From: Pseudonocardia sp. TRM90224
Lineage (GTDB): Bacteria > Actinomycetota > Actinomycetes > Mycobacteriales > Pseudonocardiaceae
Assembly: GCF_021245725.1 (NCBI RefSeq)
Contig: NZ_JAJGSX010000001.1
Location: 372,001 to 436,000, forward strand
DNA: 64,000 bases
Direction: 5' to 3'
Shown here: positions 10,291-59,100 of the stretch, piece after piece
Position numbering within the stretch: the stretch's first letter is position 1
Layout of the letters: each line of letters opens with the position of its first letter
Notes under the pieces: model-generated
What the model saw: only the letters and a program-made list of their open reading frames with translations
Databases searched by the model: none
What the model was told of the DNA's origin: nothing
Made by a program: the position numbers and the translations under genes

Positions 10291-10302
10291 CCCCAACCCC
10301 GG

Positions 10303-26094: not shown

Positions 26095-26151
26095 AGGGCA
26101 GGAAAGCCACTTTCCTGCCCTGTGAGGGCCGGAAAGTGGCTTTGCTGCCCT
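26095..26151. repeat. 57-bp double-hairpin repeat, copy 4
   Basis: Arms 26095-26121 and 26125-26151 separated by GTG. It shares the TTTGC variant with copy 2. It lies between two convergent genes (ending 25988 and 26216). Confidence 0.93.
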
Positions 26152-26215
26152 CGCCGTGCGGATCGCACCCCGGCGCCTCGGATCTCCTCGGGGTCGCGGT
26201 AGGGCAGGGCCGCCG

Positions 26216-33770: not shown

Positions 33771-33827
33771 AGGGCAGGAAAGCCACTTTCCTGCCCTCAC
33801 AGGGCCTGAAAGTGGCTTTCCTGCCCT
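33771..33827. repeat. 57-bp double-hairpin repeat, copy 5
   Basis: Arms 33771-33797 and 33801-33827 separated by CAC. Like copy 1 it is preceded by a TGCGTTCCGC-CGCG stretch. It lies between the hydrolase promoter and the end of the response regulator gene. Confidence 0.93.
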
Positions 33828-33854
33828 CCCCGTGTCCCGAGAGAGGTGGCGCCC

Positions 33855-35409: not shown

Positions 35410-36158
35410 TGTCGCTCGTCCGCGCCGAACTGCTCAAGGTGCGCAGCAGCCGGGACGTCTGGTGGATCGCCATCGTACCCGTGCTCGTCTCCGCGGCGAC
35501 CACCGCATCCTTCGTGGGCTATGCGACTTCGGCCGGCGGTCCGCTGGAGACGGGCGAGCCGGGGATCCGCGCCAGCATGTACGGGGCTGTGTTCACCGCC
35601 ACCGTGCTGGCGATGTTCTACGGCGCCCAGATCGTGACGAACGAGTTCCGCCACGGCACCGCCACCGCCACCTTCCTGACCACCGCACAGCGCCGGCGGG
35701 TCATCGCCGCGAAGGCCGTGGCGGCCGCGGTGACGGGAGTCGTGCTGGCGGTGATCGCGGCCGCCGTCAACCTCGCCATCGCCGTGCCGTGGCTCGCCTC
35801 CCTCGGCTTCGAGATCAACATCTTGGATCCCGAGGTCGGCGGCGTGCTGGTGTCCGCGGCGGCGTCCGCCCCGCTGTTCGGGGTGCTCGGGGTGGGGCTG
35901 GCCGCGCTGATCCGGAACCCGACGGTGACGATCATCGTCGCGATAGCCTGGCTCTTTTTCGTCGAGAACGTGCTCATGACCGCAATCCCCGCGAGCGGCA
36001 ATTGGCTGCCGAGCGGGGCAGCCGACGCCATCGCCGGCAACCGCGCGGTCGACATCACCGTGGCGCCGATCTGGGCCGGCGCACTCGTCCTGCTGGCCTG
36101 GGCAGCGGTCACGCTCACCGCAGGCCAGGCGGTCATGGCCCGCCGCGACCTGGCGTAG
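35406..36158 (+). CDS. ABC exporter permease
   Basis: Membrane protein of 250 residues with six hydrophobic segments (at about 20-40, 57-76, 100-132, 150-178, 185-200 and 220-240), the ABC-2 permease layout. It starts MSLVRAELLKVRSSRDVWW, the usual amphipathic entry helix of this class, and contains ATATFLTTAQRRRVIAAKAV between helices. It overlaps the ATPase gene by four bases and completes the exporter as a half-transporter pair. Transcription should end at the hairpin at 36182-36219. Confidence 0.9.
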   Translation: MMSLVRAELLKVRSSRDVWWIAIVPVLVSAATTASFVGYATSAGGPLETGEPGIRASMYGAVFTATVLAMFYGAQIVTNEFRHGTATATFLTTAQRRRVIAAKAVAAAVTGVVLAVIAAAVNLAIAVPWLASLGFEINILDPEVGGVLVSAAASAPLFGVLGVGLAALIRNPTVTIIVAIAWLFFVENVLMTAIPASGNWLPSGAADAIAGNRAVDITVAPIWAGALVLLAWAAVTLTAGQAVMARRDLA

Positions 36159-36181
36159 AAAGCGCACCTCACACATCGGAT

Positions 36182-36219
36182 GGTGGCGTCACACAGGTCG
36201 TGCCCTGTGTGACGCCACC
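36182..36219. terminator. bidirectional terminator hairpin
   Basis: GGTGGCGTCACACAGG (36182-36197) and its perfect reverse complement at 36204-36219 form a 16-bp stem with a 6-base loop. Outside it CCTCACAC (36167-36174) and GTGTGAGG can extend the stem. It lies between the stops of the permease gene and the giant gene, so it serves both. Confidence 0.8.
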
Positions 36220-36240
36220 ACGAGGTGTGTGAGGCGCGAG

Positions 36241-39200
36241 CTACGGGTCGGGGGCGTCGTCGACGGACTTGAACCTGAAGAGCGGGCCTTTCTGGTTCTC
36301 GTTCGGCACCAGCAGCTTGCCCAGCTCGGTCGACACCGATTTCTTGAGGCGATCAGCAGCGATCTCGCGCAGCTCGTGGCCGGCGGCGATGTAGCGGGGC
36401 ATGCGGCCGGCGCCCCAGTTCTCGCCCACCAGGCCCCACACTCGATCGCGCACGGCCAGCGACAGCATCCCGGCCGGGCTGGTATCCACCTCCCACTCCT
36501 CGACGACCCGCTCGAGGCTGCTCAGCGTCTCGAGCGAATATTGGCGCAGTCTTTGCCACTCCCTCGACGTCGACCGGTCCCAGAACGACTCGCGGGGCTG
36601 CTTCAGCTCCTTGCTGATCATGGTCTTGCGCAGGGGCAGGCCCACGTCCGACATCATCTGGAACAGCTCGGCAAGCGCCTTCTCGTGCTCACGACGCAAC
36701 ACCGCCTCGTCCACCCTCGGTTCCTGGCGCAGCGTGATCGCGGCCCACCGGAACTCGTCCAGTGCCGCCAGCATGAGCGGGCGCCACTCCGGAGCGTCCG
36801 CGAACCCGTTACCGATCGCGGCACGCACGTCGCGCAGGCGCAGGACGTGCCACGTCCTGACCTCGCGGCTGTAGTGCGCCCACGTCCACAGCTGCTCGAT
36901 AGCGCGGTTCGGCAACCATTCGCGGACGGTGACCGGTGTGTGCAGCTGAGGAGACTGCCAGTCCTTGCCGTCGACCAGCCGCTCGGACGCGTCGGCGAGC
37001 ATCCTCGCGTCCGCGCGCGTCAGCCCCAGCGCCGGAGCGAGCTCCCCGTCGACGAAGGCATGCAGGACGCCGATCACCTCGTTGGCATGGATCCGACGGA
37101 CCCCACCGCGCAGGATGTGGCCGGCGTCGGCCGCCATGCCGAGGTCGTGGTCGAACAGCGCTTCAGCACTGCCCTCGCTCAGCCAGTGCACGGCGGCCGG
37201 CCGGACGTTCGCCCACTGCGGTCCGAGTGGCTCGCCGCGCAGCATCGCGACGGTGGCCAACACCATCTCGTGCAGCACGTCGCGCAACTCGGGGAACGTC
37301 GTGGGCTGCCGGGTCGTGTTCAGCATGTCGAGGAGTTGGGACGCCCACGCGGCCCGGGTGTCGGCCGTCAACGGCGCGCCGTCCAGCAGCGCCCCGAGGT
37401 GCTCCTCGTCGAGGGCGGAGCCGTACGGCAAGCGCAGTCCGGCATCCGTTCCGGCCCGCGTCAGGGCCTCCGCGATCGTGTCCTCGATGCGCGCGATCCG
37501 CTCCTGCGAGTCGCGGAGGTGGTCCGCCTCGGTGTGCGTGCCGGCACCAACGCGGTGGTACAGGTCCTCGTGCTCCAGGGCGATGTCGAGCACTCCGAAC
37601 GCGGACAGCCGCGTGTGCTGCTCGGTCGTGACCATCACGAGGAACGTGCCGCGGTAGGTGAGGCCGAACGTGTAGAGCCGTCCGACGATGGACGCCGCCT
37701 GCGCCGGCTCCGCACCGCGCTGGATCAGCGTGGTGACGAGGTCGGCCTCGTCGACGAGGAACAGCAGCCCCGACGGCGGCCCGCGCTCCCGCAGCAGCTG
37801 CACGGCCGCCCTGATGAGGAGCGCGATCTCCTCCTCGGTGAGGTTCTTGCCGAGCGGCCCGCCGGGGACCGACGCCCGGGGGTTCGCCGCGTGCGCCGCA
37901 GCGAACGCGGCCGCGTCGATCGTCGCCTGCAGCTCCGCCGCGCGCTCGTCGTTGGTGTCGATGGCCGCGCGGAGCCGCCGTTGCAGCCTCGTGAGCCGGG
38001 CGATCCGCCGTCTCACATCGGTGGCCGGGTCGAGCAGGCCGGGTGTGGTTCCGGTGGCCGAGCGCGGGCCGCGGGTGATCGCACGCTGCTGCTCGCGGGC
38101 CGCGGCCAGCTCGTCGGTCACCGCCCGGAGCCGCTTCTCCTGCGCGGCGCCCTCCGCCCGGATCCGGTCCAGCGCCCGCAGGCGGTGGCCGGCGCGCCAC
38201 CGCTCGGCGCCGTCGGCCATCCGCTGCGGCAACGAGCGCCACGCCGCACCGACCCGGCCCGGCAACGGCCTGCCGATGCCCCGCCACACCCGGGTGGCCG
38301 CCGGGCGGAGCACCTTCTCGAAGCCCGTGATGAGGTCGATCGGGTGGTCCTTGCCGCGCAACGTGATCGTGATCGCCCGGAACGTCCAGCGCAGCTCGAA
38401 GAAGTTGCCGAGGTTGACCTGGCCAAAGCCGAAGCCGAGCTGCGACACCGTGAGGTAACGCAGCCCCGGCATGGTGCGCAGCGACAGGTCGTGCGAGCGG
38501 AGCCAGTTCGTCACCCGTCGCACGGGATGCCGGCCGATGAGCTTCGGCGCCGAGACGGCCGGCGCGATCTGCCGACCGCCCATGATCCCGTAGGCCATCG
38601 CGAAGACGTCGAGGTGGAACGTCCCCTCCGGGTCGTACGGGCCGTTGCGCAACGTGAACCGGAACGTCAGCCGGACCACCGGCACCGTGCTGAGCCACTT
38701 GCTGGGGCTCACCAGTCGGGTCGGGGTCACGTCGTCCTCGACGATCAGCCCCTGGATGGCGACGGCGCTGAACAGGACGGTGAGCTTCACCCACTTGCCG
38801 AGGACCCCCGGCAGGCCGATCTCCAGCAGGATCCCGTTCTCGACCGGGTAGGTCACGCCCGCCGAGAACGCCCGCTCGATGAGCACGTTCCGGATCGCCC
38901 GCGCCCGCTCGATCCGCTCGGCGAGCGTCAGCCGGTGCAGCTTGCTGACCGGGGGGAGGCTCTCCGTCAGCCGGTTCTTGAAGTGCGGGAAGAGCGAGAC
39001 GATCCCCGTGATCCTGGTCGCGACCGCCTTCGCCTTCTCCGCCTCCATGCCCAGCAGGGTCAGCAGGTTCTCGATCACCCAGCCGAACGCCTTCTGGATC
39101 ACCGGGGTGTAGAGGCGGATCTCGTACTCGGGGCGGGGTTCGCCGCCGGCGGTCACGCCGATCCGCCTGAAGGTCGCGGCCGCGCCGCGCAGCGCGCCAC

Positions 39201-42200
39201 GGACCTTCGCGAACGCCGCCCGGACCTTGGCCAGGGGCGCACGCAGCTTCTCGAACGGCGCGCTGACCAGCGCCCACCCGATGTGCACCACGAGCGGCAT
39301 GCGCTGCCAAAAGTTGCGCAGCCGGGCCGGCGCTCGGTGCTTCTTCGCAACCGTGCCCGTCGACCGGCCGGTCGTGAGCGCCGCGGCGCCGCGGCGCGAC
39401 GCGAAGAACTTCCGTGCCGCGACCACCAGCGCCGCCCGCGCCCCGACCACCCCGCCCGCGATGCCCGCCGCCGCCAGCGGGTCGCCCGTCACGGCCACCC
39501 ACGAACCGCCCGCCAGCGCGGCGACCACCCCGGTGGCGCGGGCCCGCCACGGCACCGGGGCGGGCGCGTCGAGGTCGTCGACGATCCCGCGGGAGTGCGC
39601 GACGTGTGCGGCCTCGTCGGCGAACGACCCGTTCATGTGCATGCGCTCGTGCTCGACGGCGCGCGCCAGCAGCCCACGCCGCTGCAGCGGCGCGACCCGC
39701 TTCGACATCACCACGAACACCGACGTCGGCCCGTCGCGGAAGCTGAACATGATCAGCTTCGCCACCAGTGCCTCCGCGGCATCGGGCGACATCTTGCGGC
39801 GCACGAGCTCGGCCACCAGGTCCTGCTCGACGACCTCGAGCAGCTCCTCGTTCGCGTTCAGCCGCACCGGTGGGCCGCGGCTGCGGACGCGACCGTGCGC
39901 GCGCATCGTCGGCGGGGCCGTCGCACGGATCCGCTTGAACGACTTCCGCAGCAGCTTCGCCTCGGCCTTGCTGATCCGGCCGTCCGCCAGCGCGCCGCCG
40001 CCCGCCCCGCCGACCCCGCCGCCGACACCACCGCTGATGCCGCCGGCGGAGTGCGACTCCGGCCGGACCCCGAGGCTCGGCGCCGGAGCTGTCAGCTCGG
40101 GTGCAGGACGCTGCCCGGACTGCTCATAGCGGGCTTCGGCGAGGTCGCGCTCGAGCAGGGTGATGTAGCCGGTCCCGGTGGCGTCCACGACGGCGGTCCG
40201 GATCGGCTTCGCGGTGCCGTCGGCGGCGAGCCTGCCCAGCTCCAGGCGCACGTGGAAGGTCAGCCCGACCTCGATCGTCGCGCCGGTGTCCTTGATGAAC
40301 AGCGACGACTCGCCGCGGTTGCCCCCGGTCTCGCCGGCCCCGGCCGAGCTCTGCGCACCGAACGAGACGCTCGGTTCGTCGGCCCCACCGCCGAAGCTCC
40401 ACGAGAGCGGGAGCAGCCGCCCGTCGGACACGCCGTACCCGAACTTGGTCTCCTGCCGGTTCACGGTTCGCAGCTCGACATCGCGGCCGGCGACGATGAT
40501 GCGCCCGCCCGTCGCGACCGCGCTGATCACGATGTCGACGTAGCGGTGGCGGCTGAGCGGGATCCGCGCGATGCGGTGGCCGCCGGGGCTCACCATGCGG
40601 CGCAGGAACGCGCTGCGGGCGTTCGGGGCGAGCGCATGGTCGATGTCGGCCATTGCGGTGCTGCTCAGCCGGCCGCCCGCGATCCGGCGTACCGCGGCCT
40701 GGACGGTCTCCACCAGGTTCGGTGCGTGGACGCCCTCCACGCTGAACTCGTCGGGCAGCCGCAGCTCCCGCGGGTCGGTCACCTGCTCGACGGCGCCGGT
40801 GTCCAGCAGCCCGTTCGGGATCAGCCGGATCAGCTCGCCGAGCACGACCCTGGTGTTCGTGGTGCTGCGGCCGTGCCGGACCTGGATGGTAACGGCGACC
40901 GTCTGCGCCACCCGGTCGGCGCCGTCGAACGTCGCCGTGCCGTCGAGCCGGGTCCCGGTGGTTCCCGTGCTACCGGAGCTGCCGGCCGTGCGGCCCGTGC
41001 TCGCCCCGCCGGAGATCCCGGCCGCGTCGCCCTGCACGCCGCCGCCGATCGTGACCGAGCGGCCGGCGTTCCCCTCGGTCTGCCCGTACCCGTAGTCCTG
41101 GATGATCATCAGCGTGCTCGGCGCCCGGCCCCGCAGCGTCGGCTCCCCCACAACCCGCGCCGTCACCGTCACGTCGACCCAGGTGATGCGGTCGGCGCCC
41201 GGCTCGTTGCCCGGCACCCGCACGGGCAGGCGCAGCCGGTACCCGCGCTCGCCGAGCATCGCGTCGACGTTGCCCGTCCAGCGCTTGCCGGCGAAGGCGT
41301 TGCTCAGCGCCTGCCACAGCACCGGGTCGTGGTCGAGGACACCCGGCACGGTGTGCTCGACGGCCCCGAGCACCTCGCCGAACAGCTCCGTGCGGGTGTC
41401 GTCGGCGCGCCGCCACGTCGCCTGCTCGATCGCCGACTGCCCCAACGCGTCGTGCATGTGGACGGGCAGCTTGACCGCGGGCGGCGCGGCCGCCCGATCC
41501 ACCCCGTCCGCCAGCCGCTCGGCGAGCGGGCCGGGATAGGCGCCGAAGGCCTCGGCCAGGGCCGCGGCGAGCTCCGCTTCGGTGTGGATCGAGTCGCCGT
41601 CGGCCAGGTACCGGTGGATCAGCCGGTGCGCCAGCGCGTCGTCGAGCTGCAACGTGCCGTTGACGAACCGCTCGACCGCATCGGCCACCTGGTCGGCGGG
41701 CAGCTCCAGCTCGTTGCCGACGTACAGCTGCAGCGCGTCGCGCTCCGGCAACGCGAACGCGACGGTGCCGACGACGCCGTCCTCGGTGCCACCGCTGATG
41801 CGGAGGTCCATCGTGTAGACGTAGTGGCGGCCCAGCTCGATCGTCAGGCGTTCCCGGCCCCAGATCCCGAGCCCCGACCAGCCGGTCGAGCGGCTCGTCG
41901 AGCGGCTCCCCTTGATCCCGGCGCCGCCGTTGAGGTCGGCCAGGCGGTTCAGGCCGCCGCCGAACGACCCGCTGAGCCCGATGGCGACCGGGCGGTTGCC
42001 GGACGTCCCGTGGCTGCCCAGCGCGAGGTGGATGTCGCCGATCACCAGGTCGGACACGGTGACCAGGCGCATCGACCTCGGGGTTGCCGTGAGCCACAGG
42101 TCCGAGCGGGTTGTGCTGCCGTCCTGGGCGCGCACCGCGAGCGACGTGCCGTAGCCGGCCTTGATCAGCTCCAGCAGGTGGGTGCGCAGCCCGTCGACGC

Positions 42201-54200: not shown

Positions 54201-57200
54201 TGGACGCATCGCACGCGCCACCGGTCGCGCACTTCGCGGCGCCGATCATCTTGGCGCCCCGGCCGGGGACGACCACTCCCGGCCGGCCGATCGTCGTCGG
54301 GTTGTCGGTGCCGACCGACGTCGTCCCGGCGCTGGTCGGGCAGGCGGCCTGGCCGGCGCTCTTGCACGATGCCGAGGCGAACGCCGAGGTCGCGGCGAAC
54401 CGCTGCTGGTTGTTCGGCGTGACGCTGGCCGAGGCGCCCGTGACGATGCCTGCCTCGCAGGCGCTCCAGCCGGCCTTGCAACCGGCGGAGGCGACGCCGC
54501 GGCTCGTGGCGACAGGGTCGCTCTTCGTGGCGCGCGCGGGGCGCTTGACGCCGTTCTTGGCCGCGGTCAGCGCCGCGGAGGCGCCGCCGTCGGGGCTGGC
54601 GGCCGAGGTCGAGTCGCCCGTGACGGTGCCGTCGCAACCATCGGGGCAGTCGAGCGACGAGCCCGCCTGCGTCATCCCGGCGACCCCGGGGATCCAGGTC
54701 GCCTTCTTGCCCTTCACGGGCGGCGTGGTCAGCCCGGTGGTGCCGAGCGTGCTGGCGACGGCGTCGGAGCCGACGGCGCAACCGGTCTCGTTCCGGCAGC
54801 GGCCGGTCGAGTGCGACGTGCTCTTCCCGGCGTCACCGGCGCTGCTCGTGAGAGCGTCGCTGACGGTGTTCGCCGTGCAGTCCGGTCCGCCGCACTGGGC
54901 GTAGACCCCGGACTGGCTCATCGTCACCGGGATCGAGGACGGGAGCTTCGTGGCGTTGCGCTTGAGGAGGTAGTTCACACCGGCGCCGGAAGCGGAGCTC
55001 GACTGCGTCTGAACCCGGCAGGGGTCGGTGGCGTTGCAGGTACCGCGGGTGCTGCTGGTGCTCGTGGCTGGTGGGCCGCGGGCGCCCTTGCCCCCGATGA
55101 ACGTGCCGAGCAGCGCGGGTGCGGTGCCGCCGTTCGCGCGGGAGTAGGCGCTACCGGTGCAGCCTTCCGGGCAGTCCGCGACGGCGAAGGCGTCGGTGAA
55201 GCTCGACGGGCCGGGGACGGGCGCCGGGCCGGCGATCGACTTCGGCTGGCCGTTGGCCGGCAGCTTCTGCGCGGGCGGCAGGTCGGGCAGCAGCTGGGCG
55301 ACGTCCGCGCCGGCGCTGGCGACCGAGCGGCTGCTCCCCCAGCAGTCGCCGCCGGTCAGCGCGCAGCCCGCGGTGCCGTCGGAGCCCTTTGTGTTGACGC
55401 CGTCGGAACCGGACGCGGACGTGGTCACGTTGCCGGTGCAGCCGCCTGCGCATTCGATCGAGGCCGTCACGTCGGCCACGCTCGAGAGCCGCAGCGGGCC
55501 GTTCAGGAGGTCACGCCCGCCGGTCGGCATCCGCACGCCGTCGGCGTCCTTGGCCAGGTCCTTGAGCAGCGACACGGCGGCACCGGTGGTCGAGGCCGCG
55601 GAGCGGGCCTCGCCGCCGCAGGCGCCGTCCTTCACCGCGCAGGTGAGGGTCGCCGTGGCGCCCTTGTCCTTCTGGTTCCCGGCGAACGCGGCGGTTGCGC
55701 TGGTGGCGGTACCGGTGCAGCCCTCGGGGCAGTCCAGCTTCGCGCCGGCAACGACCTGCGCGGCGCCGCCGCCCGCCGAGGTGGACATCCCGCTCGTCGT
55801 CCCGGCGCACTTCCCGCCGGCGACGGTGCACGAGGCGGTCCCGCGGGCGCCGCGCACCACGGCGTTGGCGATGGCGCGGTCGACCGCGCGGGTCTCCGAG
55901 CCGGCCGTGCCGCCGCAGGTGCCTTCACCGCCGCCGCACTCGATCTTCGCCTCGACGGTCGAGACGCTCTGCGTGGTGACGTCCGAGCCGGTGTCCGCGG
56001 CGCACGAGCCGCCGTCGCCGCGGACGGTGCAGGTCGCGGTGCCGCCGGTGCCGCGCGGCTTGACGTCGCCGGTGAGGGAACCGGCCGTCGCGCTGCTCCC
56101 GGCTCCGGTGCAGGTGGTGGAGGCGCACCGGACGTCGGCGCCGGCGTCGCTCTTCGCGACCGCGACCCGCGTGCCCGCCGTGTCACCGGGCTCCGTGGTG
56201 ACCTCGGAGCGCGCCTCCGACGAGCAGTCGCCCATCGTCACGGAGCAACGGGCCGACGAGGTCGTGGCGCGGACCGGCGTGGGCTTGCCGTTGGCGGCAA
56301 CACCGCGGACGGCGCCCCTCGACGACGAGCCGGCGTTGCCCTTGCAGGTCTCGGAGCCGCTGCAGTCGACGTCGGCGCTCGCGTCGCCCTTCAGCACACC
56401 GTCGACGTACCGGGCGCTGCCCTGCGCATCGCAGGAGCCGTCCTCGACGGTGCAGGAGGCGGCCCCGTTGCTCACCCCGCGCGCCGTGCCCCGCACGGAG
56501 CACGAGCCGTCGTCGGCGCGGCAGCCGGTCTCGGCGCCGCGGGCGTCGGCGGTGCCGTCGAGCTCGCAGCGGCCGGTGCAGGACGCCGCCGTGACGTTGG
56601 CCGCGACCTTCGTGGAGGTCCGCGGTCCGGTGGTGTTGCCGCGGCAGGTGCCGGATTTCGTCTTGCAGGTCACCGTGGCCGTGGTCGCCGTCGCCTTGGT
56701 CTTCTGCGAGCAGTCGGTGCCGCTGGCGCACCACGCGGACGCCTTGATCGAGCCGTTCGCCGAGCTGCTGCCGCAGCCCTGCTTGCTCCCGGTCAGCGTG
56801 CAGGACGCCGAGGCCTTGATCGAACCCGCGGACGACGAGACACCGCAGCCGTTCGAGACACCGGCGAGGGCGACGCACGAGTCGGTGCGGATGGTCTCAC
56901 CGGTCTTGGTGGCCGAGCCGCACTTCACGAACATGCCGCTCTTGCCGCAGCCGGCCGACGCGCCGTTCTTTTCGAGGTCGTCGAAGCTGTTCTTCGACGG
57001 GCCGCCGAGCGACTCCTGCAGCTCCTCGGTGGTGCGGTAGACCGCGTCCTTGCGCTTCTCCAGCGCGGCGGCGTGCGCGGCGTAGACCTTCTTGTCGAGC
57101 TTGCCGGCGGCGACCTGCTTCTTCTCGGCGGCCAGCTGCGCCTCTGCCTTGGTGATCCCGCGCTGCCCGTTGACGACGTCCGTCACGAGCTTCGCGTCGT

Positions 57201-58776
57201 CCTTCGACAGCTTCGCCGAATCGGCGGCGACCTGCTTCGCGAGCTTCTGGTGCGCGGCGACGTGCTGCGCGTAGGTCTTGGCGTTGCCCTTGCCGGCGGC
57301 GAGGTTCTTCTTCTCGGCGGCAAGCGCGTCCTCGCTGCGGGCGAGCGCGATGCGGCCCTTCAGCACCTTCTCGGTCTGCTCGTCCGACGACGGCGGACCG
57401 CGCTGCTCGGCGTCGTCACCGTGGTGGTCCGGGCGCGCCCCGTCCTCGTTGGGCCGCTTCCCGTCGGTGGGGTCCTTGCGGAGGTGCTCGATGAGCTTCG
57501 TGATCACCGCCGTCGCGTCGGGGTCGCCCTTGAGCGCCTTGCGCGCCGCCGCGGCCCATGACGCGACCTTCTCGGCGATCTCCGCCCGCTCCTTCTCAGA
57601 GGCGCCGCGGTATTCCGCGTCGAGCCCCTTCGCGTCCTTCACGATCTTCTCGATGGCGGGGCGGTTCACCGCCGGCTTGGTCTTGTTGCCCGTCGATCCG
57701 GAGGTCGGCTTCTTCTTGCCCGCCGCTTCCTGCAGCTCCGCGATCTTCTCCGCCGCCCTGCCGATGGCGGTCTCGACGTCCGTTCCACGCTTGCCGATCA
57801 TCGTCTTGACGCCGCGCTCTGCGGCCTCCTTGATCTCGGCGATCTTCTTCGCCGCCGCGGCCTTCTTCTCGGCGATCTTCTTCGCCGCTGCCGTCTTCGC
57901 GTCGGTGACCTTCTTGTCGGCGCCCGTGTCCTTCTTGCCCGCGGGGAGCTTCAGCTCGAGCGTGTGCGCCTTCTCGTCGTTCTTCTTACCCGCCGGAAGC
58001 CGGAGCTCGAGCGTGTGCGCCTTCTCGTCGACCGAATCGTCGTCGTCCGATTGAGAGGTGCCCTTCGTCGGCGTCTTCTTCTCCGGGGTCTTCTTCTCCG
58101 GGGTCTTCTTCTCCGGGGTCTTCTTCTCCGGGGTCTTCTTCTCCGGGGTCTTCTTCTCCGGGGTCTTCTTCTCCGGGGACTTCTTCTCCGGGGACTTCTT
58201 CTCCGGGGACTTCTTCTCCGGGGACTTCTTCTCCGGGGACTTCCTCTCCGGGGACTTCCTCTCCGGGGACTTCTTCTCCGGAGACTTCTTCTCCGGGGAC
58301 TTCTTCTCGTCCGAGCCCTTGTCCGACTTCCGGTCGCCGGAGTCGCCGTCGCCGTCCGAGTTCCTGCTCTCGGACTTCTTGCTCTCCGACTTGTTGTTGT
58401 CGGAGTTGTCGTTCGACTTGTTGTCGTTCGAGTCCCCGCCGTCCGAGCCCTTGCTCTCCGACTTGGCCGAGTCCGACTTCCCGGAGTCGGACTTGCCGTT
58501 GGAGCCGGATCCGTCCTTGCCGCCTGCGGGCCTGCTGGTGCCTCCCTTCAGGAGGCCCTGGGCGGCGATCGCCGAAGCGGGCACGGCCGCGGCGGCGGGG
58601 GCAGCGGCAAGCAGCGCCCCACCCATCCACAGCGCGACCACGGCTCCGGCCAGTCCGAGCGTCCACCGCAGCAGCACCGCCGCCCGCGCCGCCGGGGTCA
58701 TCCGCAACCGCACGGCGGCAGCCGGACGCGCGGCAAGGCCCGAGGCCCCACCGTCGCGAACAGACCGCCAGCACAT
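36241..58776 (-). CDS. giant secreted/surface protein, 7,511 residues, multidomain
   Basis: One uninterrupted frame of 22.5 kb from ATG 58776 (upstream GGAG at good spacing) to TAG 36241. Residues ~30-70 form a signal sequence/anchor (WTLGLAGAVVALWMGGALLA). In order: Ser/Asp/Lys-rich and KSPE/KTPE stalk (~90-235), coiled coil (~285-370), two AAEKK-YAxH repeats (~480-590), a Cys-pair region (~606-2450), Ala-rich helices (~2480-3060), membrane segments (~3075-3095 and a cluster 3625-4035), LysM-like repeats (4045-4150), a Pro/Thr stalk, helical region (4230-4760), six beta modules (4780-6215), and two RGPP/HExxH-like modules (6300-6400, 6998-7100). I recognise no complete known family. A role in cell contact, adhesion, predation or toxin delivery is speculation. 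It is probably controlled by the divergent regulator. Confidence 0.85.
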   Translation of the reverse strand: MCWRSVRDGGASGLAARPAAAVRLRMTPAARAAVLLRWTLGLAGAVVALWMGGALLAAAPAAAAVPASAIAAQGLLKGGTSRPAGGKDGSGSNGKSDSGKSDSAKSESKGSDGGDSNDNKSNDNSDNNKSESKKSESRNSDGDGDSGDRKSDKGSDEKKSPEKKSPEKKSPERKSPERKSPEKKSPEKKSPEKKSPEKKSPEKKTPEKKTPEKKTPEKKTPEKKTPEKKTPEKKTPTKGTSQSDDDDSVDEKAHTLELRLPAGKKNDEKAHTLELKLPAGKKDTGADKKVTDAKTAAAKKIAEKKAAAAKKIAEIKEAAERGVKTMIGKRGTDVETAIGRAAEKIAELQEAAGKKKPTSGSTGNKTKPAVNRPAIEKIVKDAKGLDAEYRGASEKERAEIAEKVASWAAAARKALKGDPDATAVITKLIEHLRKDPTDGKRPNEDGARPDHHGDDAEQRGPPSSDEQTEKVLKGRIALARSEDALAAEKKNLAAGKGNAKTYAQHVAAHQKLAKQVAADSAKLSKDDAKLVTDVVNGQRGITKAEAQLAAEKKQVAAGKLDKKVYAAHAAALEKRKDAVYRTTEELQESLGGPSKNSFDDLEKNGASAGCGKSGMFVKCGSATKTGETIRTDSCVALAGVSNGCGVSSSAGSIKASASCTLTGSKQGCGSSSANGSIKASAWCASGTDCSQKTKATATTATVTCKTKSGTCRGNTTGPRTSTKVAANVTAASCTGRCELDGTADARGAETGCRADDGSCSVRGTARGVSNGAASCTVEDGSCDAQGSARYVDGVLKGDASADVDCSGSETCKGNAGSSSRGAVRGVAANGKPTPVRATTSSARCSVTMGDCSSEARSEVTTEPGDTAGTRVAVAKSDAGADVRCASTTCTGAGSSATAGSLTGDVKPRGTGGTATCTVRGDGGSCAADTGSDVTTQSVSTVEAKIECGGGEGTCGGTAGSETRAVDRAIANAVVRGARGTASCTVAGGKCAGTTSGMSTSAGGGAAQVVAGAKLDCPEGCTGTATSATAAFAGNQKDKGATATLTCAVKDGACGGEARSAASTTGAAVSLLKDLAKDADGVRMPTGGRDLLNGPLRLSSVADVTASIECAGGCTGNVTTSASGSDGVNTKGSDGTAGCALTGGDCWGSSRSVASAGADVAQLLPDLPPAQKLPANGQPKSIAGPAPVPGPSSFTDAFAVADCPEGCTGSAYSRANGGTAPALLGTFIGGKGARGPPATSTSSTRGTCNATDPCRVQTQSSSASGAGVNYLLKRNATKLPSSIPVTMSQSGVYAQCGGPDCTANTVSDALTSSAGDAGKSTSHSTGRCRNETGCAVGSDAVASTLGTTGLTTPPVKGKKATWIPGVAGMTQAGSSLDCPDGCDGTVTGDSTSAASPDGGASAALTAAKNGVKRPARATKSDPVATSRGVASAGCKAGWSACEAGIVTGASASVTPNNQQRFAATSAFASASCKSAGQAACPTSAGTTSVGTDNPTTIGRPGVVVPGRGAKMIGAAKCATGGACDASTNSFAADHMAEVSGSCKGLGCHAGTTGKAVATPQRGVLAQLNKEAAAAAKKEAAKQAAAQKKKGIKQQKGTTEKSVSGCGATCTPKGPVKGSHAAVAGSSCTAGAKQTCQVTGRVGASALGADASAACSGSKACKFTFAVRSGATDRFGTNVAVGRGACGTTGGAGSGWCATTALAETSKTQALAGAACSGSKNAKCTYSYRGNSAQSDKAKNAAGKALATGWGSGRSGSGTVVTSAFAEASKGQAVAGASCAGTKGSNCRYAYLAKAEDRAKKAGSKAAAKAIGWKSGKQGGGAVVVLAQAVAGRGYSGASAVCEGAANCRRSFSARTSASDSYGSNVARASARGKGTGKQGAGGVFVTAQAKAGPGYAMASASCKGAKNCRHSFSARAADSAGFGSNWAHASARGSGGGRIGSGGVSVTAQAQAGPGYAAASASCSGAANCRHSYAASAAASARYDGPGPNGSIVHNRAQAWARGSGGGGQGGGGVSVSAQAQAGPKGAGSGASCSGAANCRAGFTSYSASDAYYDADHHARARASCSGGGSGGWCATAAVAIASAKTASAGASCAGSAGVNCYHSYSAYSGAKLKTPNTIVKGSTRCGDSGGVGGDGCGTLAYSEVDPKTGMTMLYLACDGPGCKFSGTADVHIKNLIINGKAHQQCTSPAGGGKSGCTLGVQGKFSTDRSKEDMFGDVFGFCVGTKGVSCKGSYSMEVDNGGSYGVCKGFGTGGCHGEALSKASKPVLVQPICAKGVACTWTTSSFSKNELTSADGKLKGDADSFCSTSSAAGGTGCATSAEVIFSNGEVIAVATCSAGQADGGGCRSHSHTEAKDSLNKTIGVDTRTCNRGTAGVCPSRSFAVTGEGPRGIGTGNGPEVRGTWDASVNHSWAVAGGSCSADPGATCTGSFTTNVDSGAGTNTICRGVGDGSCDGDATPKRAESTGIGTGTIEAHTPDEDRSGTFQSWGWGFSPATTIGADTHETPGRLAINVGRGAKDFYTGLDETIPQFAEDVVTHFGNFGKLVLNPRDRKHGESQEAWTKRVLGGTEDEKFPLKTMMDQSGNMLGKIINRKAGNELFWEPVPSVMTAISGPLMLMPFVGGGLGAIAKAGIRTAATKTVATAATKSLVSRAAATAGKVALGITRGIAWGVNTIGMLPFKPFTIAGRGVAFVASKGLTRMAEVATGRGLVTRAATLNKMAAVSGALARRAGVGGAFATFRDPTLMLRGQRPVALAVGKGLGWVAGRSGQIAAFLRIEPTRVGAVLNNAAVRTLAYGYGLGLRRSFAAPGKTTLAGVREFVRNYGRQPVAAGVASQRAPVAVTIVKQPAGELGAQIRATEQAIAALDEQMAKDAAAAKVVSPKDQAKLAELRAELAELRGKAPEKGTPEARQRAARVAVLEAAIAKLEGQGTNPAAMARNAAKRSSLNVELQSLKDRARIAAATEIPVYYGKGGRPFGAASKDGAGTGSPRSPLAPEPGTPGGKGVAPAGSQSARGGTGARGDDGPTNGPPSVRPADDQPGAGNPSQGNPQSSGGQSKQRAEQAPPARGPPAFLSKFRKFVGSVAIVAMTVAGLQVSFVRGSAERVAAEGASVTATTSKTIGDGLRTGEQPAGNSGRFDAQDSVGQKPGKESPAKDALGKNNVGDDAVNGGSAAGSIDKVLGAALSTGKGPVARAVVTAALDGTAGPGTGTDNGMERIDVAVVAPMLITPIADNRVTGGLLEAMWSDGVARTYDSGPNGYSPIAWGVLNALTPTMWDAKRGEWVTSGPAWANTRIEKAWDQYLRDRKTASRLRAANPDAPEAGDREDNLSPLENRQKQLNQAADEAEAAAKQQERDGAGLLRRFHLQRGRKEPGRNQDVSWRKQAQQLLDTIAALRAMAADYRAQAAELEAEIVRQRSADAGIPTTNVEFVELPGGRIGVEFTERSTDDLRRALEQVETGFKDAMTARRATAKSASPAAAAALSWLDALYTGGAPLRKLYEPARAVDALQRQAPAKKIGNVSLGLLAGLADEGVPTPVLRDLLRLADEAGGVRPELSRDAIMELRALLRAGSTKGGLDAVTRFAERYGFGWDEQTRTALAGTFRNMDRGLTRPWRKSPVMRAGAVLSVLGSGSLAAALLGAAPLLIAAVPVVGVTVVALVTSKLRYGSVRGPPAQRAVSSLVLGATAAAFAGIPGATPIALTVVALTAVAVIVAVTVALLRVVGPRGVGELVVAGAVIGATALGATTFGAMTVIPALAGSAGAVVLAAALEAGVQALNGNRIHPLAARTARVAVPVALAIGAAFAGGPLALLAAMAGITIGAGVVRGVRAVTTRGRRVVAGWAIVTMAAPWFQPAGLPLFVTVAPAVLAGLFGAAPLVLGVGAAAAVRAHRVTLRGLVGVIGTGAITGAAVLAGGIVAGLTAGAAVAAAAGVAVVWQILQRLARHAVTPPAVRVALGLAPAASIIAAGIAGGPGAALAAVAGIVVGNGVVAAARAIAKGGRGALRVVAGTAGVAAMVVLPVAGVLTALSGGSPVGSVAAAAIRPGLTFEVREGDTYTSITEAMNLGPDALAAANPGRFPTLASRNLILAGEPLNVPSAWDGVWRLDTNLCDVAQRFNVKGGVAALIKANPELAGKDPRKLDDELPITIPGVMKPTVPRPSTPTPTPTPSVIPSATPSATPTVTPPVETPTSTPTPGTGAGTTRGPPFWSVAADVARVVLWVAAGALGLFSLGMWAASGRPGLSHLAGVRKFAGAAWKRIRQLKPSAVSTGIRMAVTAGLGRIARWSWENAMSQAAAEHAAATDPKERAEARHRLEVLFAALVDAGSRPVWLAALAGWNVEAVLLAVQLVHREHTLRQVAAELDDLHVTNADRVLGEIRAVLDDLDGAAPTAPVADELRARLAELDALIAGAWPGAMAWRAAAGALGVGLRWTAKGLVATLPDGSAVPVDPALVAHLARWLTTREAAAGAPVAVAEAAAWWGARFADVAGGDRVAGVLDALAVAAAAGGIERGLALDVARQVLAATGGTDALDRSALTGDAAALADELGFVGARTTALATDLVEVADTILTGIAELPAGRGVAETSGRVDAVVEAIDADIAALDARIDAKTRAAEQAREDVAAARKRVKAAKAQNDRGKRERARKATVDVRVALEQLERHTRSAGRYTAAKAKAVQARDAYVRLAGALARLPAGAPTDELARKVVAAARAATDAVVVYRAVLAETLPPREALATGFAIQELPFLAEATAAVNRLLTDKGATARITELQLADMVRASLRSVANGEGFVMVLPGPDAAELKIEIRLGEMVEDVTPSELASQLMVGSIPQGGRSFSAGANRRIGVPWTPDLGALADLMDGTHIGAALRTLGQVFRISVNIGRNEGTTVGASGFVLDGGVADNRGDSMLLQVGMGWELSVRVAGDNPTAWTDTVRVDAARGAGAIGPQDADLLRLWVSHTYAARAPPRTVDGPQRPQGRLPHHAPLVVKGLNAFADDIAVRFGAHGEIGQLARDQIRALIANDLPGRLQVATDADGLLRMIVDERGNPIAAVRITSKVVSGRIVGTASIKEHIEDLFVAFSGNSGSLSTGRSAGMGAAVRRISVVVRGLFGFDAGLGGGWSWSSTLGTSASSVAIHPAVHRFSGRTIAQELELTHEAEITWLDGSRAPSSVRGAGTALVRMSESAAYRYGLTIDAEAVVGEAADGTAVLRDDPKPGPPKSRTAEQPAFIGNNFADGKIRGVGHGLVRDITDLAELRRQVMEKLAGTGWLPTTGAVGIDPRELAVQWSNLRELTEQLSDVRLQGSYDQAAQQGLIFTLLRHQPGQEPVHVLVRVRVEADWDKLDYKGHTAAWTTVGLDIGSNTAGRSQSTETSWNFKGSAGAAIGKDTDPAEPGLQADDTISFRIEGSREAGRDAGSSAGATANQVTLVEGTSTTAVFEIKHKVVVEQLLPGGATEELGHVHGTAQLLLPSDLLPDSNPIAEIDAQPVGDGVLARMTPLAADFGAVDALVERLLPAGMRPDSPAAHHLRELVSVDGLRTHLLELIKAGYGTSLAVRAQDGSTTRSDLWLTATPRSMRLVTVSDLVIGDIHLALGSHGTSGNRPVAIGLSGSFGGGLNRLADLNGGAGIKGSRSTSRSTGWSGLGIWGRERLTIELGRHYVYTMDLRISGGTEDGVVGTVAFALPERDALQLYVGNELELPADQVADAVERFVNGTLQLDDALAHRLIHRYLADGDSIHTEAELAAALAEAFGAYPGPLAERLADGVDRAAAPPAVKLPVHMHDALGQSAIEQATWRRADDTRTELFGEVLGAVEHTVPGVLDHDPVLWQALSNAFAGKRWTGNVDAMLGERGYRLRLPVRVPGNEPGADRITWVDVTVTARVVGEPTLRGRAPSTLMIIQDYGYGQTEGNAGRSVTIGGGVQGDAAGISGGASTGRTAGSSGSTGTTGTRLDGTATFDGADRVAQTVAVTIQVRHGRSTTNTRVVLGELIRLIPNGLLDTGAVEQVTDPRELRLPDEFSVEGVHAPNLVETVQAAVRRIAGGRLSSTAMADIDHALAPNARSAFLRRMVSPGGHRIARIPLSRHRYVDIVISAVATGGRIIVAGRDVELRTVNRQETKFGYGVSDGRLLPLSWSFGGGADEPSVSFGAQSSAGAGETGGNRGESSLFIKDTGATIEVGLTFHVRLELGRLAADGTAKPIRTAVVDATGTGYITLLERDLAEARYEQSGQRPAPELTAPAPSLGVRPESHSAGGISGGVGGGVGGAGGGALADGRISKAEAKLLRKSFKRIRATAPPTMRAHGRVRSRGPPVRLNANEELLEVVEQDLVAELVRRKMSPDAAEALVAKLIMFSFRDGPTSVFVVMSKRVAPLQRRGLLARAVEHERMHMNGSFADEAAHVAHSRGIVDDLDAPAPVPWRARATGVVAALAGGSWVAVTGDPLAAAGIAGGVVGARAALVVAARKFFASRRGAAALTTGRSTGTVAKKHRAPARLRNFWQRMPLVVHIGWALVSAPFEKLRAPLAKVRAAFAKVRGALRGAAATFRRIGVTAGGEPRPEYEIRLYTPVIQKAFGWVIENLLTLLGMEAEKAKAVATRITGIVSLFPHFKNRLTESLPPVSKLHRLTLAERIERARAIRNVLIERAFSAGVTYPVENGILLEIGLPGVLGKWVKLTVLFSAVAIQGLIVEDDVTPTRLVSPSKWLSTVPVVRLTFRFTLRNGPYDPEGTFHLDVFAMAYGIMGGRQIAPAVSAPKLIGRHPVRRVTNWLRSHDLSLRTMPGLRYLTVSQLGFGFGQVNLGNFFELRWTFRAITITLRGKDHPIDLITGFEKVLRPAATRVWRGIGRPLPGRVGAAWRSLPQRMADGAERWRAGHRLRALDRIRAEGAAQEKRLRAVTDELAAAREQQRAITRGPRSATGTTPGLLDPATDVRRRIARLTRLQRRLRAAIDTNDERAAELQATIDAAAFAAAHAANPRASVPGGPLGKNLTEEEIALLIRAAVQLLRERGPPSGLLFLVDEADLVTTLIQRGAEPAQAASIVGRLYTFGLTYRGTFLVMVTTEQHTRLSAFGVLDIALEHEDLYHRVGAGTHTEADHLRDSQERIARIEDTIAEALTRAGTDAGLRLPYGSALDEEHLGALLDGAPLTADTRAAWASQLLDMLNTTRQPTTFPELRDVLHEMVLATVAMLRGEPLGPQWANVRPAAVHWLSEGSAEALFDHDLGMAADAGHILRGGVRRIHANEVIGVLHAFVDGELAPALGLTRADARMLADASERLVDGKDWQSPQLHTPVTVREWLPNRAIEQLWTWAHYSREVRTWHVLRLRDVRAAIGNGFADAPEWRPLMLAALDEFRWAAITLRQEPRVDEAVLRREHEKALAELFQMMSDVGLPLRKTMISKELKQPRESFWDRSTSREWQRLRQYSLETLSSLERVVEEWEVDTSPAGMLSLAVRDRVWGLVGENWGAGRMPRYIAAGHELREIAADRLKKSVSTELGKLLVPNENQKGPLFRFKSVDDAPDP
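37470..37785 (-). other. giant protein: RGPP/HExxH-like module 2
   Basis: RGPP at residue 6998 is followed by VDEADLVTTLIQRGAEPAQA, FLVMVTTEQ and ALEHEDLYHRVGAGTHTEAD. The motif is HEDLYH (from His 7069), one residue longer than HExxH, so this copy may be inactive or bind metal differently. The distance RGPP-to-His is 71 residues, against 76 in module 1. Confidence 0.65.
39568..39879 (-). other. giant protein: RGPP/HExxH module 1
   Basis: RGPP at residue 6300 is followed by VEQDLVAELVRRKMSPDAAE, VFVVMSKR and AVEHERMHMNGSFADEAAHV. HERMH (His 6376, Glu 6377, His 6380) is a canonical HExxH zinc-protease motif, and DEAAH downstream can give the third ligand. It aligns over its whole length with the module at 37470-37785. 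Confidence 0.68.
40120..44470 (-). other. giant protein: six beta-rich modules with Gly/Ser-rich segments
   Basis: About residues 4770-6220 consist of six units of roughly 240 residues. Each has beta strands with alternating hydrophobic residues and one long Gly/Ser-rich, uncharged segment, for example SGSLSTGRSAGMGAAVRR, GIKGSRSTSRSTGWSGLG, SFGAQSSAGAGETGGNRGES and GASTGRTAGSSGSTGTTG. Sequence identity between units is low, and I infer the units from this rhythm. The Gly/Ser segments are like amphipathic hairpins of pore formers or of fibre proteins; neither can be decided. Confidence 0.6.
46330..47960 (-). other. giant protein: hydrophobic cluster followed by LysM-like repeats
   Basis: About residues 3610-4035 contain more than ten hydrophobic, Ala/Gly/Val-rich segments separated by short Arg-rich turns (for example VAVIVAVTVALLRVVGPRGV). 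After them comes a LysM-like motif (FEVREGDTYTSITEAMNLGP, ALAAANPGRFPTLASRNLIL) and a second related copy (NLCDVAQRFNVKGGVAALIK, ANPELAGKDPRKL), then a Pro/Thr linker. LysM binds peptidoglycan or chitin-type glycans. A wall-binding domain after a membrane cluster suggests that the chain crosses the membrane and wall at this point. Confidence 0.7.
51410..56960 (-). other. giant protein: Cys-pair region of about 1,850 residues
   Basis: From about residue 606 to 2450 the chain is made of Ser/Thr/Ala/Gly-rich stretches with Cys at intervals, as pairs such as CKTKSGTC, CRADDGSC, CTVEDGSC and CSGSETC, every 25-35 residues. In the first 215 residues I count 18 Cys, so the whole region has roughly 150. 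In a secreted protein these should form local disulfides and give a long, protease-resistant fibre. The repeated pattern suggests many degenerate copies of a ~30-residue unit. Confidence 0.8.
57931..58029 (-). repeat. 51-bp tandem duplication in giant gene
   Basis: Two copies spaced by 51 bp encode EKAHTLELRLPAGKK and EKAHTLELKLPAGKK (about residues 248-282 of the giant protein). They connect the KTPE stalk with the Lys/Ala-rich coiled coil. Confidence 0.8.
58081..58305 (-). repeat. 15-bp tandem repeat encoding KSPE/KTPE stalk
   Basis: Fifteen consecutive 15-bp units, 225 bp, within the giant gene. Nine encode KKSPE/RKSPE and six KKTPE; the switch is one base (GAC versus GTC on the + strand). 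Near-identity at synonymous positions shows recent expansion by slippage. The product is a stiff, alternately charged and Pro-kinked segment suited to cell-wall crossing. The Ser/Thr-Pro pairs could be phosphorylated, but the segment should be outside. Confidence 0.9.
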
Positions 58777-59100
58777 GTCGGAAGACTCCAGAAGATCGAT
58801 GAAAGGAATGGTGCGGAGCTGGGCGAAAACGCCCATGGAGGTCGGGATCCCGCACGTCGCGCCCAAGGCTGCGACCCGCTCCGGACGGTCGTCTGCACGC
58901 CCGGTACATCCCTCGAGCTCCCGGCCGATCGGTTGCGCTACTTCAGCAAACGATCGCTCGGAATCTCTTGCGCAAGATTGCTGGCCGGAGCCGCCGCCCA
59001 CCAGGACAGGCAACAGGCAACTCAACAGGCAACAGGCAGACGCCCATGCGAGACTTTCTCCGGCTTGTCCGTCGGCAGCAGTGGAAGGGGTGGGCGGCCA
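58777..59100. promoter_or_regulatory. 324-bp divergent promoter region of giant gene and regulator gene
   Basis: No gene is supported. Four copies of ACAGGCA stand at 59006, 59013, 59025 and 59032 as two direct heptamer pairs separated by five bases. A perfect palindrome TCTTGCGCAAGA lies at 58966-58977. A purine-rich site precedes GTG 59101, and GGAG precedes ATG 58776. Direct heptamer repeats are the usual site type for AfsR/SARP-like and other tandem-binding regulators. Confidence 0.65.

Follow-up and report, generated by a model that had tools for sequence, protein, structure and literature searches.

Zhang et al. (2012; PMC3482391) had earlier drawn attention to giant multi-toxin proteins in actinobacteria. 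As described in the part of that text considered here, these proteins resemble the family reported below in their very long chains, their N-terminal trafficking part and central repeats, and in carrying several effector domains, such as ADP-ribosyltransferases, together with releasing peptidases; immunity genes such as SUKH accompany polymorphic toxin systems. Unlike the systems in that part of the text, the Pseudonocardia proteins contain a Cys-rich hairpin fibre, RGPP marks and an HE domain that match no family searched, and the words "Pseudonocardia", "cysteine-rich" and "trypsin" are absent from the first 300,000 of its 354,187 characters. The giant ORFs of Omnitrophota, in the excerpts of PMC10066038 used, are also extremely long, have few annotated domains and have been suggested to act in adhesion, but they belong to another phylum and the likeness is one of description only. 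According to excerpts of PMC12863079 and PMC10619420, Apilactobacillus and Mobiluncus have very large surface proteins (3,000-8,000 aa and 7,651 aa, respectively); the Mobiluncus giant contains 51 Ig-like repeats (PMC10619420), whereas Pfam revealed no Ig-like or other adhesin repeat in our protein.

The window, i.e., the whole stretch of 64,000 nucleotides of Pseudonocardia sp. TRM90224 that was analyzed, contains a giant gene on its minus strand (Table 1). The frame is free of stop codons from a TTG at 59025 as far as the stop codon at 36241-36243. The G+C content at the third codon position is 0.86-0.97 in all 15 blocks of 500 codons, compared with 0.48-0.79 at positions 1 and 2, so the frame is coding and not open by chance. 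The ATG at 58776 (MCWRSVRDGG...) is backed as the start by similar N-termini of relatives, and a GGAG is seen by eye nine bases 5' of it. Judged by these signals, 36241-58776 is one intact, real gene that is coding-like along its whole length. An earlier note, made from the DNA letters, had described a single gene for a 7,511-residue protein, and this length is exact.

Table 1. Features of the giant gene and its flanks (positions in the window; aa, residues of the 7,511-aa protein).
Feature	Position	Strand	Remark
ABC-2 type permease, convergent	35394..36158	+	PF12730, E 7.8e-8
Long palindrome amid convergent genes	36157..36232	.	Dispersed repeat
Giant gene	36241..58776	-	7,511 codons plus stop, ATG 58776
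Extended signal-type N-terminus, aa 1-70	58567..58776	-	Hydrophobic peak
Charged low-complexity stalk, aa 71-458	57403..58566	-	PEKKS-type 15-base repeats
RGPP site 1, G = aa 460	57391..57402	-	Joins stalk to helical bundle
Four-helix coiled-coil bundle, aa 464-589	57010..57387	-	AlphaFold2 model
Cys-rich beta-hairpin fibre region, aa 600-2452	51421..56979	-	Cys content; model covers aa 456-957
RGPP site 2, G = aa 1234	55069..55080	-	Within fibre
RGPP site 3, G = aa 3068	49567..49578	-	Directly ahead of hydrophobic segment
Hydrophobic (membrane-type) cluster, ~10 segments, aa 3641-4023	46708..47856	-	Hydrophobicity
RGPP site 4, G = aa 3670	47761..47772	-	Amid hydrophobic segments of the cluster
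Weak LysM-like domain, aa 4048-4095, then Pro/Thr linker	46492..46635	-	PF01476, E 1.1e-3, below cut-off
RGPP site 5, G = aa 4203	46162..46173	-	Pro/Thr linker on one side, hydrophobic segment on the other
Beta modules, ~aa 4717-6227	40096..44628	-	Alignment; parts common to giants of other genera
RGPP site 6, G = aa 6301	39868..39879	-	
HE domain copy 1, aa 6310-6404	39565..39849	-	Motif HERMH
RGPP site 7, G = aa 6999	37774..37785	-	
HE domain copy 2, aa 7005-7099	37480..37764	-	Motif HEDLYH
C-terminal tip past last RGPP, aa 6999-7511	36244..37782	-	No fold assigned
XRE/NB-ARC/TPR regulator, 889 aa, divergent	59101..61770	+	

The signal-like N-terminus, the Lys/Ser/Pro-rich stalk, the Cys-rich region and the membrane cluster that the note had listed were all found in the sequence; its LysM-like domain is present but weak (19.3 bits, cut-off 20.9). 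The N-terminus, with the motif DGGASGL...VRLR...LLRWT.GLAG...LWMGGALLA, is of a hydrophobic signal type that would mark a trafficking region. The relatives look alike: the VRLR...LRW pattern is present in 9 of the 14 frames tested, and the misses are cut, obscured or divergent. The note had proposed profile searches and structure prediction as checks. AlphaFold2 gave a confident model of aa 456-957 (best pLDDT 87.6, pTM 0.81; five models 65.3-87.6), with four helices followed by antiparallel strands, but a separate model of the tip (aa 6985-7511) reached a pLDDT of 37.2, was unusable and was discarded. With the fibre model as query, Foldseek gave 566 matches from the PDB and 269 viral ones at E <= 10, and not one reached E <= 0.001; since the query TM-scores were also low (<= 0.18 among the best 50 of each set), these were read as no match.

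The claim that the protein fits no complete protein family was upheld. No Pfam (overlapping pieces spanning the whole protein), NCBIfam or PHROG family scored above its cut-off, and nothing known spans the length of the chain. Pfam matches to RHS repeats, a TPS/haemagglutinin domain, RTX repeats or tandem adhesin domains (Ig-like, cadherin, Big) were not obtained over the whole protein, nor was any phage tail or tape-measure PHROG at E <= 0.01, and aa 456-957 matched no plasmid or phage record. Matches of the stalk to Extensin_1, HC2 and histone-like profiles (Pfam, NCBIfam) were of low complexity, below cut-off, and were set aside. Neither Pfam nor NCBIfam recognized a C-terminal toxin domain, and the tip had no sequence match in the PDB. 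PDB sequence searches with the tip, two tips of shorter relatives (L121 and L122), the HE domain, the N-terminal module and the beta modules yielded nothing useful; the best matches of the HE profile (T32-15-1 and F4132-2; E 0.009 and 0.014) cover profile positions 1-54, ahead of the HE motif.

The protein is not a lone oddity. Its N-terminal module was detected in at least 22 of 62 Pseudonocardia genomes, in at least 87 frames, with at least eight matches in the source genome, our protein among them; these are lower bounds, as at most 40 candidates were scored per genome (in one further search, the best 40 of 613 first-look candidates). The 87 frames are 100 match rows less 13 second segments that were merged, and some are cut by contig ends. 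The homologues are not always split into several genes: at least 58 of the 87 frames are 5,000 codons long or longer, and the largest has 58,239, while locus L130 consists of shorter separate frames and some other short frames end at contig ends. In one genome such giant genes make up ~8% of the DNA. In Omnitrophota, a giant ORF is said to reach 85,804 aa. Outside the genus the N-terminal module was not convincingly found in the genomes sampled, a statement about the sample because scoring was confined to 2 to 15 first-look candidates in each genome.

Giants of related actinobacteria share parts of the beta modules, clearly so for G194 and G280 and over 93 positions (E 1.9e-4) for G172; G280 also has a Gln_amidase match just below cut-off (E 3.7e-4). 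By eye, the N-termini of G194 and G172 look to be of the WXG/T7SS type, in contrast to the Sec signal and Cys fibre of the Pseudonocardia giants. All three WXG-type giants differ from the Pseudonocardia family in lacking RGPP and the HE domain. The later part of the tip of the 7,511-aa protein is common to giants of G008, G022 and G012.

The tetrapeptide RGPP is not among the features listed by the earlier note. It occurs 152 times (7.3 expected) in the 34 frames counted, and is present in all of them; these are what remains of 48 frames after exclusion of four controls and ten that were duplicates, cut or without a clear N-module (174 against 9.1 expected across all 44 non-control frames). 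No RGPP was found in 119 ordinary ORFs (1.4 expected) or in four frames of other genera (2.0 expected). A recombination site at the DNA level was ruled out as its origin, since synonymous codons vary across 171 RGPP sites. Among the 19 members tested, those anchored by a regular expression, RGPP lies near the junction of stalk and helical bundle in 13 and within the stretch matching site 2 in 18. It is likely that RGPP is a processing mark. That it is a folding or linker motif, carried along with shuffled modules, is a serious alternative, though less likely than not; it touches this part of the model only and is compatible with every other reading. The flanks, which have no other strongly conserved residue, the part of the sites that are inherited homologous positions, and the enrichment of RAPP (51 against 12.5 expected), because of which the second residue is not absolute, speak for it. 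The motif is, however, nearly strict (RGPP 152, KGPP 1, RGPA 9, RGPG 12, RGPS 8), it recurs in many unrelated contexts and stands at module starts, and none falls within 17 recognized domains (2.3 expected).

RGPP often stands ahead of the repeated HE domain: for 26 of the 52 copies (1.1 expected) it lies at most 30 aa upstream or among the initial 10 residues of the domain, and the other half have none nearby. The earlier note had pointed to metalloprotease-like motifs, and copy 1 does have HERMH, but family-wide HExxxH (23 copies) outnumbers HExxH (11); of the 52 copies, which belong to 13 proteins, two have both and 16 neither, so that a motif is kept in 36. Short members of the family have RGPP and lack the HE domain; therefore, HE domains cannot be the sole processing enzyme.

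Domains that are absent from our protein are found in its relatives. The giants carry ADP-ribosyltransferase, trypsin-like, FHA, SecA-like, nucleotidyltransferase, PP2C and HTH domains, and siblings in the source genome match an ADP-ribosyltransferase exotoxin (E 2.8e-12), Abhydrolase_8 (E 3.7e-30) and a trypsin-like domain (E 1.5e-7). Many other sibling domains (MFS, GGDEF, MarR, NUDIX) are untypical of toxins, which counts against a toxin reading. A SecA-like ATPase was rejected as a core part: it occurs in 13 of 48 frames (query included, one locus counted twice), and our protein has none.

The short members share the same trunk and, at 8 of the 15 loci looked at, end in one of three types of C-terminal tip. 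Each type has a candidate immunity gene directly downstream that is homologous within the type (60% identity for L120/L122, 71% for L121/L123 and 35-80% for L124/L125/L127/L128). The genes after L121 and L123 match SUKH-1 below the Pfam cut-off (E 0.047 and 0.061), and the L121 tip matches Toxin-deaminase over just 20 residues (E 0.047), likewise below cut-off; the genes of the remaining pairs gave no match above cut-off. No tip/immunity pair was seen at the other seven loci: several break off at a contig end, L133 finishes with a LysM-like stretch, and no candidate immunity gene adjoins the 3,013-aa member. The short members resemble toxins that are accompanied by immunity genes. These tip-matched genes, together with the ADP-ribosyltransferase, trypsin-like, nucleotidyltransferase and PP2C domains of the family and the lack of any Pfam adhesin repeat family in the 7,511-aa protein, make it unlikely that the protein serves on the surface only as a structural or adhesive fibre, with hairpins and beta modules that would build a coat or adhesin and C-terminal domains that would be no more than additional structural modules. 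The confident model of the first part of the fibre, the weak match to a wall-binding LysM-like domain, the absence of a recognized enzyme domain and the lack of an evident immunity gene would all suit such a fibre.

No immunity gene for the 7,511-aa protein is evident adjacent downstream, where its expected place is occupied by the convergent permease. A 206-codon same-strand frame behind the giant gene passes the composition filter, but it runs antisense over the Pfam-matched permease. The hairpin that had been called the gene's own terminator is a dispersed palindromic repeat with eight further places in the genome, and a private terminator was ruled out on that account. At the other end, the divergent XRE/NB-ARC/TPR protein is real, but its supposed dedication to the giant gene is not supported: among the loci compared, relatives were found only at L121, L123 and L028 and none at the 5' end of other giants. 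The peptide gene mentioned by the earlier note could not be assigned to a frame; two plus-strand frames are open across the gap at 58777-59100. If the effector served in predation resistance and acted on eukaryotes, such as protists or fungi, instead of bacteria, the producer would not be a target and the lack of an evident immunity gene would be expected; the ADP-ribosyltransferase, PP2C and trypsin-like domains of relatives could act on eukaryotic cells. We consider this improbable in view of the candidate immunity genes of short members and of the same-strand, coding-like frames that lie no more than 65 bases from the stop codon in 5 of the 11 giants looked at (C37, G8, G15, C85 and G12b) and may be immunity genes.

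The distribution of Cys bears on the location of the chain. The fibre region holds 100 of the 102 Cys residues, and the 5,059 residues past aa 2452 contain one; the 58,239-aa relative has 16 in 55,114 aa. By comparison, 270 other ORFs have 8.09 Cys per 1000 residues, with 28-64 in every 5000 aa. The body is depleted in all 11 Pseudonocardia giants profiled, including G11, whose stepwise profile agrees with the others and whose misplaced boundary (100 Cys counted as "after" the Cys-rich part) is contained in the pooled value of 1.08 per 1000; the WXG-type giants G172 and G194 of other genera are nearly Cys-free too. As the depletion extends across the body in all giants profiled, it suggests that the entire chain is exported, with which the internal hydrophobic clusters fit awkwardly. 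A membrane-spanning contact or signalling protein with the Cys-rich part outside and the body in the producer's cytoplasm is very improbable given this depletion, seen alike in the 11 giants and the two WXG-type giants, although the hydrophobic cluster does separate the two parts and relatives have domains of cytoplasmic types (FHA, PP2C, GGDEF, SecA-like and HTH).

On sequence grounds, the N-module family probably consists of secreted giant mosaic proteins, and we favor, with a probability of about 0.55, the view that the giant gene encodes a secreted antagonism protein resembling polymorphic toxins. The best reading of the 7,511-aa protein is a variant among the giant multi-domain toxins of actinobacteria. 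The suggestion of an undescribed surface or antagonism system holds up well: no family scores above its cut-off, no PDB entry matches the parts searched, and the relatives point to antagonism. In this model, the chain would be exported by the extended Sec-type signal. Outside the cell, its N-terminal third would fold into the modelled helical bundle, followed by a long fibre made of Cys-rich beta hairpins, the first part of which is modelled with confidence and whose disulphides are presumed. The C-terminal two thirds, which are almost devoid of Cys and comprise the hydrophobic cluster, the LysM-like domain, the beta modules and both HE domains, would also be exported, as the Cys depletion indicates, and may act as delivery body and cargo. 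RGPP at the module starts would serve for processing or recognition, probably through R|GPP cleavage that frees pieces, and the tip past the last RGPP (aa 6999-7511) would be the most likely effector.

More tentatively, the family may represent a new class of Sec-exported mega-polyproteins of 6,000 to 58,000 residues, anchored by the hairpin fibre and cut at RGPP into separate effectors by HE domains in cis or by a trypsin-like enzyme in trans. If so, a single gene would equal a whole secretion-and-arsenal operon. As the genus has cultured strains and its open frames reach 58,239 codons, very large bacterial proteins would become accessible to experiment. Cys depletion along the whole chain is an easily read sign of export that can be applied to further giants. 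RGPP yields a residue-exact, testable prediction, N-termini starting with Gly-Pro-Pro, and, should it mark cleavage, it would explain how many independent effectors can be held in one frame.

The minus-strand frame of the giant gene is uninterrupted from a TTG at 59025 to the stop at 36241, and since third-position G+C (0.86-0.97) exceeds that at positions 1 and 2 (0.48-0.79) in every one of its fifteen 500-codon blocks, we treat the gene as one coding frame. The start was placed at the ATG at 58776, giving 7,511 aa, because the N-terminal pattern M....vrDGgA.GLa...VRLR...LRW is common to the window protein and its relatives. The coordinates 36241-58776 and the length in the earlier note are exact. 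The very stable hairpin behind the gene (36150-36232; -70.5 kcal/mol, z -8.1), which had been taken for the gene's own terminator, is instead a dispersed palindrome present at 8 further places in this genome. It differs from the palindromic repeats around AGGGCAGGAAAGCCACTTTCC (10234-10291, 26080-26165 and 33771-33828), which are a repetitive extragenic palindrome family; 26080-26165 has at least about 40 matching places in the genome (best 40 of 613 candidates scored). At 9312-9839, a tandem array of 10.5 units of 32 bases each (94% alike) begins ~100 bases after a tRNA-Arg (CCT). The divergent regulator proposed earlier does exist, as an XRE/NB-ARC/TPR protein, but its description as dedicated is not supported: no relative was found at the 5' ends of other members in the loci examined. 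No peptide gene could be made out in the 324 bases that separate the start codons of regulator and giant gene, where two plus-strand frames are open throughout.

Domain order of the window protein
Feature	Residues (aa)	Remark
Extended signal-type N-terminus	1-70	
Lys/Ser/Glu/Pro-rich stalk	71-458	
Four-helix bundle	464-589	AlphaFold2 model
Cys-rich region	600-2452	100 of the 102 cysteines
Single hydrophobic segment		between Cys-rich region and membrane-type cluster
Hydrophobic cluster	3641-4023	about ten segments
Weak LysM		C-terminal to hydrophobic cluster
Beta modules		C-terminal to LysM; common to other giants (alignment A2)
HE domain, two copies		C-terminal to beta modules
C-terminal tip		after HE domains; no assigned fold

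In the Cys-rich region, 43 of the 98 gaps between cysteines are 4-9 residues long. The AlphaFold2 model of residues 456-957 (13 alignment rows; pLDDT 87.6, pTM 0.81; five models from 65.3 to 87.6) is a helical bundle followed by a single run of antiparallel strands, and the Foldseek matches listed for it among solved and viral structures include no convincing one. We read these strands as hairpins, presumably cross-linked by disulphides; by extension of the model, the rest of the Cys-rich part, beyond residue 957, would have the same build.

The window protein is firmly a member of a family of giant mosaic proteins defined by their N-terminal part, the N-module (11-row alignment A1). Searched with a single peptide pattern in the genomes of 84,980 species, a collection that may lack records of the window's own genome, the alignment located the N-module at 13 loci, all in Pseudonocardia. 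In the order and phylum samples, with limited candidates scored per genome, only short weak matches were obtained, each time in one genome besides the window's own (of 397 and 396, respectively). Within the genus, at least 22 of 62 genomes contain the N-module, in at least 87 frames (second segments merged), a lower bound from limited candidates per genome that takes in some frames cut by contig ends; 58 of these have at least 5,000 codons, 34 at least 10,000 and seven at least 20,000. The window's own genome has eight N-module matches. Genomes bearing the N-module are larger (median 8.4 vs 6.6 Mb; Mann-Whitney p 1.1e-5, genus sample). The C-terminal 544 residues of the window protein have matches in 8 of 41 genomes including its own, every one a Pseudonocardia, and the matching frames are 4,525 to 15,898 codons long. 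The largest family frame, 58,239 codons in genome G012 (C3:815160-989876, L080-L088), was read end to end and has a coding-like codon-position G+C of 0.73/0.50/0.88; the 14 family frames of that genome total 255,004 codons, ~8% of it. Parts of the beta modules also occur in frames of 12,384 and 19,630 codons (G694:C23 and G694:C17) from a genome of another taxonomic family of the class.

Beyond residue 2452, the window protein has one cysteine in 5,059 residues, and 16 were counted in 55,114 residues of the 58,239-aa relative; the rate in 270 other ORFs from these loci is 8.09 per 1,000, and their 5,000-residue blocks have 28-64 each. Stepwise profiles revealed this depletion in 11 of 11 Pseudonocardia giants, and two WXG-type giants of other genera are likewise depleted. 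This indirect evidence makes export of the whole chain of the window protein likely. The depleted stretches of the Pseudonocardia giants contain SecA-like, FHA, PP2C, trypsin-like and transporter-like domains; we therefore argue that these would be cargo or delivery parts crossing an oxidising space, and the depletion argues against their being signalling parts native to the producer's cytoplasm.

All 34 family frames counted contain the tetrapeptide RGPP, with 152 copies in total vs 7.3 expected from composition; 119 ordinary ORFs (1.4 expected) and four frames of other genera (2.0 expected) have none. Seven copies are in the window protein (residues 460, 1234, 3068, 3670, 4203, 6301 and 6999). 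Because the codons for Arg, Gly and Pro vary over 171 sites, selection acts at the protein level; the one near variant that is not rare is RAPP (51 vs 12.5 expected). RGPP is found near the stalk-bundle junction in 13 and within the fibre in 18 of the 19 members tested, at most 30 residues before, or in the first 10 of, 26 of 52 HE domains (1.1 expected), directly N-terminal to the final 241 residues of the short member L122, and inside none of 17 recognised domains (2.3 expected). We propose RGPP as a mark for processing or recognition. HE domains were not found in every RGPP-bearing member, nor were trypsin-like domains, so at least some members would need a trans-acting enzyme. Nothing related to RGPP cleavage was found in the literature by title and abstract start.

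The HE domain set comprises 52 copies from 13 proteins, collected by iterated profile search. Conserved positions are the first His (42 copies), the Glu (45), the second His (38) and a downstream His (40); 23 copies have the spacing HExxxH and 11 have HExxH, two have both and 16 have neither. The invariant His columns of the 18-row alignment are biased, as rows were picked mostly for having the motif. The domain looks metal-binding, a prediction short of a classical zincin. Among 346 phylum genomes (limited candidates scored per genome), a single weak match (E 9e-4) was found besides the window's own genome. In the latter, the HE profile also marks giant frames of 6,039 and 7,708 codons (C46:69705-72206 and C29:16213-16437) and a copy in a 118-codon frame (C37:376213-376566) immediately past the stop codon of C37, a giant of 10,332 codons that may therefore have lost its last module.

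Fifteen loci of short members (L120-L133 and a 3,013-aa member) were examined, and eight of them combine the N-module, one of three tip types and an adjoining, type-specific homologous gene. The tips of L120 and L122 have a nuclease-like motif by eye and no Pfam match, and each is followed by a 247-aa gene (60% identical). L121 and L123 have the second tip type, whose L121 copy gives a weak Toxin-deaminase match (E 0.047, 20 residues), and the genes behind them, 71% identical, have sub-threshold SUKH-1 matches (E 0.047 and 0.061). L124, L125, L127 and L128 have pentapeptide repeats (L124 and L127 were searched) before a hydrophobic C-terminus; the frames behind them, of 220-233 codons and 35-80% identical, each encode a membrane-type segment. 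The 3,013-aa member has a C-terminal nucleotidyltransferase domain (PF01909, 21.2 bits vs a cut-off of 21) and no adjoining immunity candidate. Among the giants of the window's genome, C37 has two RGPP sites flanking an ADP-ribosyltransferase exotoxin domain (E 2.8e-12), and Abhydrolase_8 (E 3.7e-30), Amidoligase_2, FHA, trypsin-like and sub-threshold PP2C domains also occur; PP2C is above cut-off in a G022 giant. Of 48 frames searched, 13 have SecA-like segments (query included, one locus counted twice). Forty scanned pieces of the 58,239-aa frame gave GGDEF, MarR, NUDIX, rhomboid, aspartyl protease and MFS domains, with five pieces of MFS type; the frame also has SecA-like, FHA and PP2C domains and 14 HE copies. 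In five of 11 giants (C37, G8, G15, C85, G12b), a coding-like same-strand frame starts at most 65 bases past the stop; the C37 one is the remnant of an HE domain, and the C85 one, judged by eye, resembles a regulator of the LysR type.

The window gene is followed by a same-strand frame of 206 codons that passes the coding-like composition filter; this frame was rejected as a gene because it is antisense to the convergent permease. The window protein has no toxin domain recognised by Pfam or NCBIfam and its gene no evident adjoining immunity gene, and for these reasons we do not class it as a polymorphic toxin. That it is a purely structural fibre nevertheless seems unlikely to us, antagonism being suggested by its relatives. 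An effector against eukaryotes would need no immunity gene, a reading that we consider quite improbable. In titles and abstract starts of the matches listed for Pseudonocardia giant proteins and polymorphic toxins, this family was not found, and Zhang et al. 2012 (PMC3482391) was the sole relevant paper; passages of one further paper make no mention of the family, and the main text of a survey of huge proteins (PMC11573180) does not contain the word Pseudonocardia. By analogy with its relatives, the window protein most likely works like a polymorphic toxin, in which a fibre trunk would carry RGPP-bounded modules and the tip would be the putative effector.
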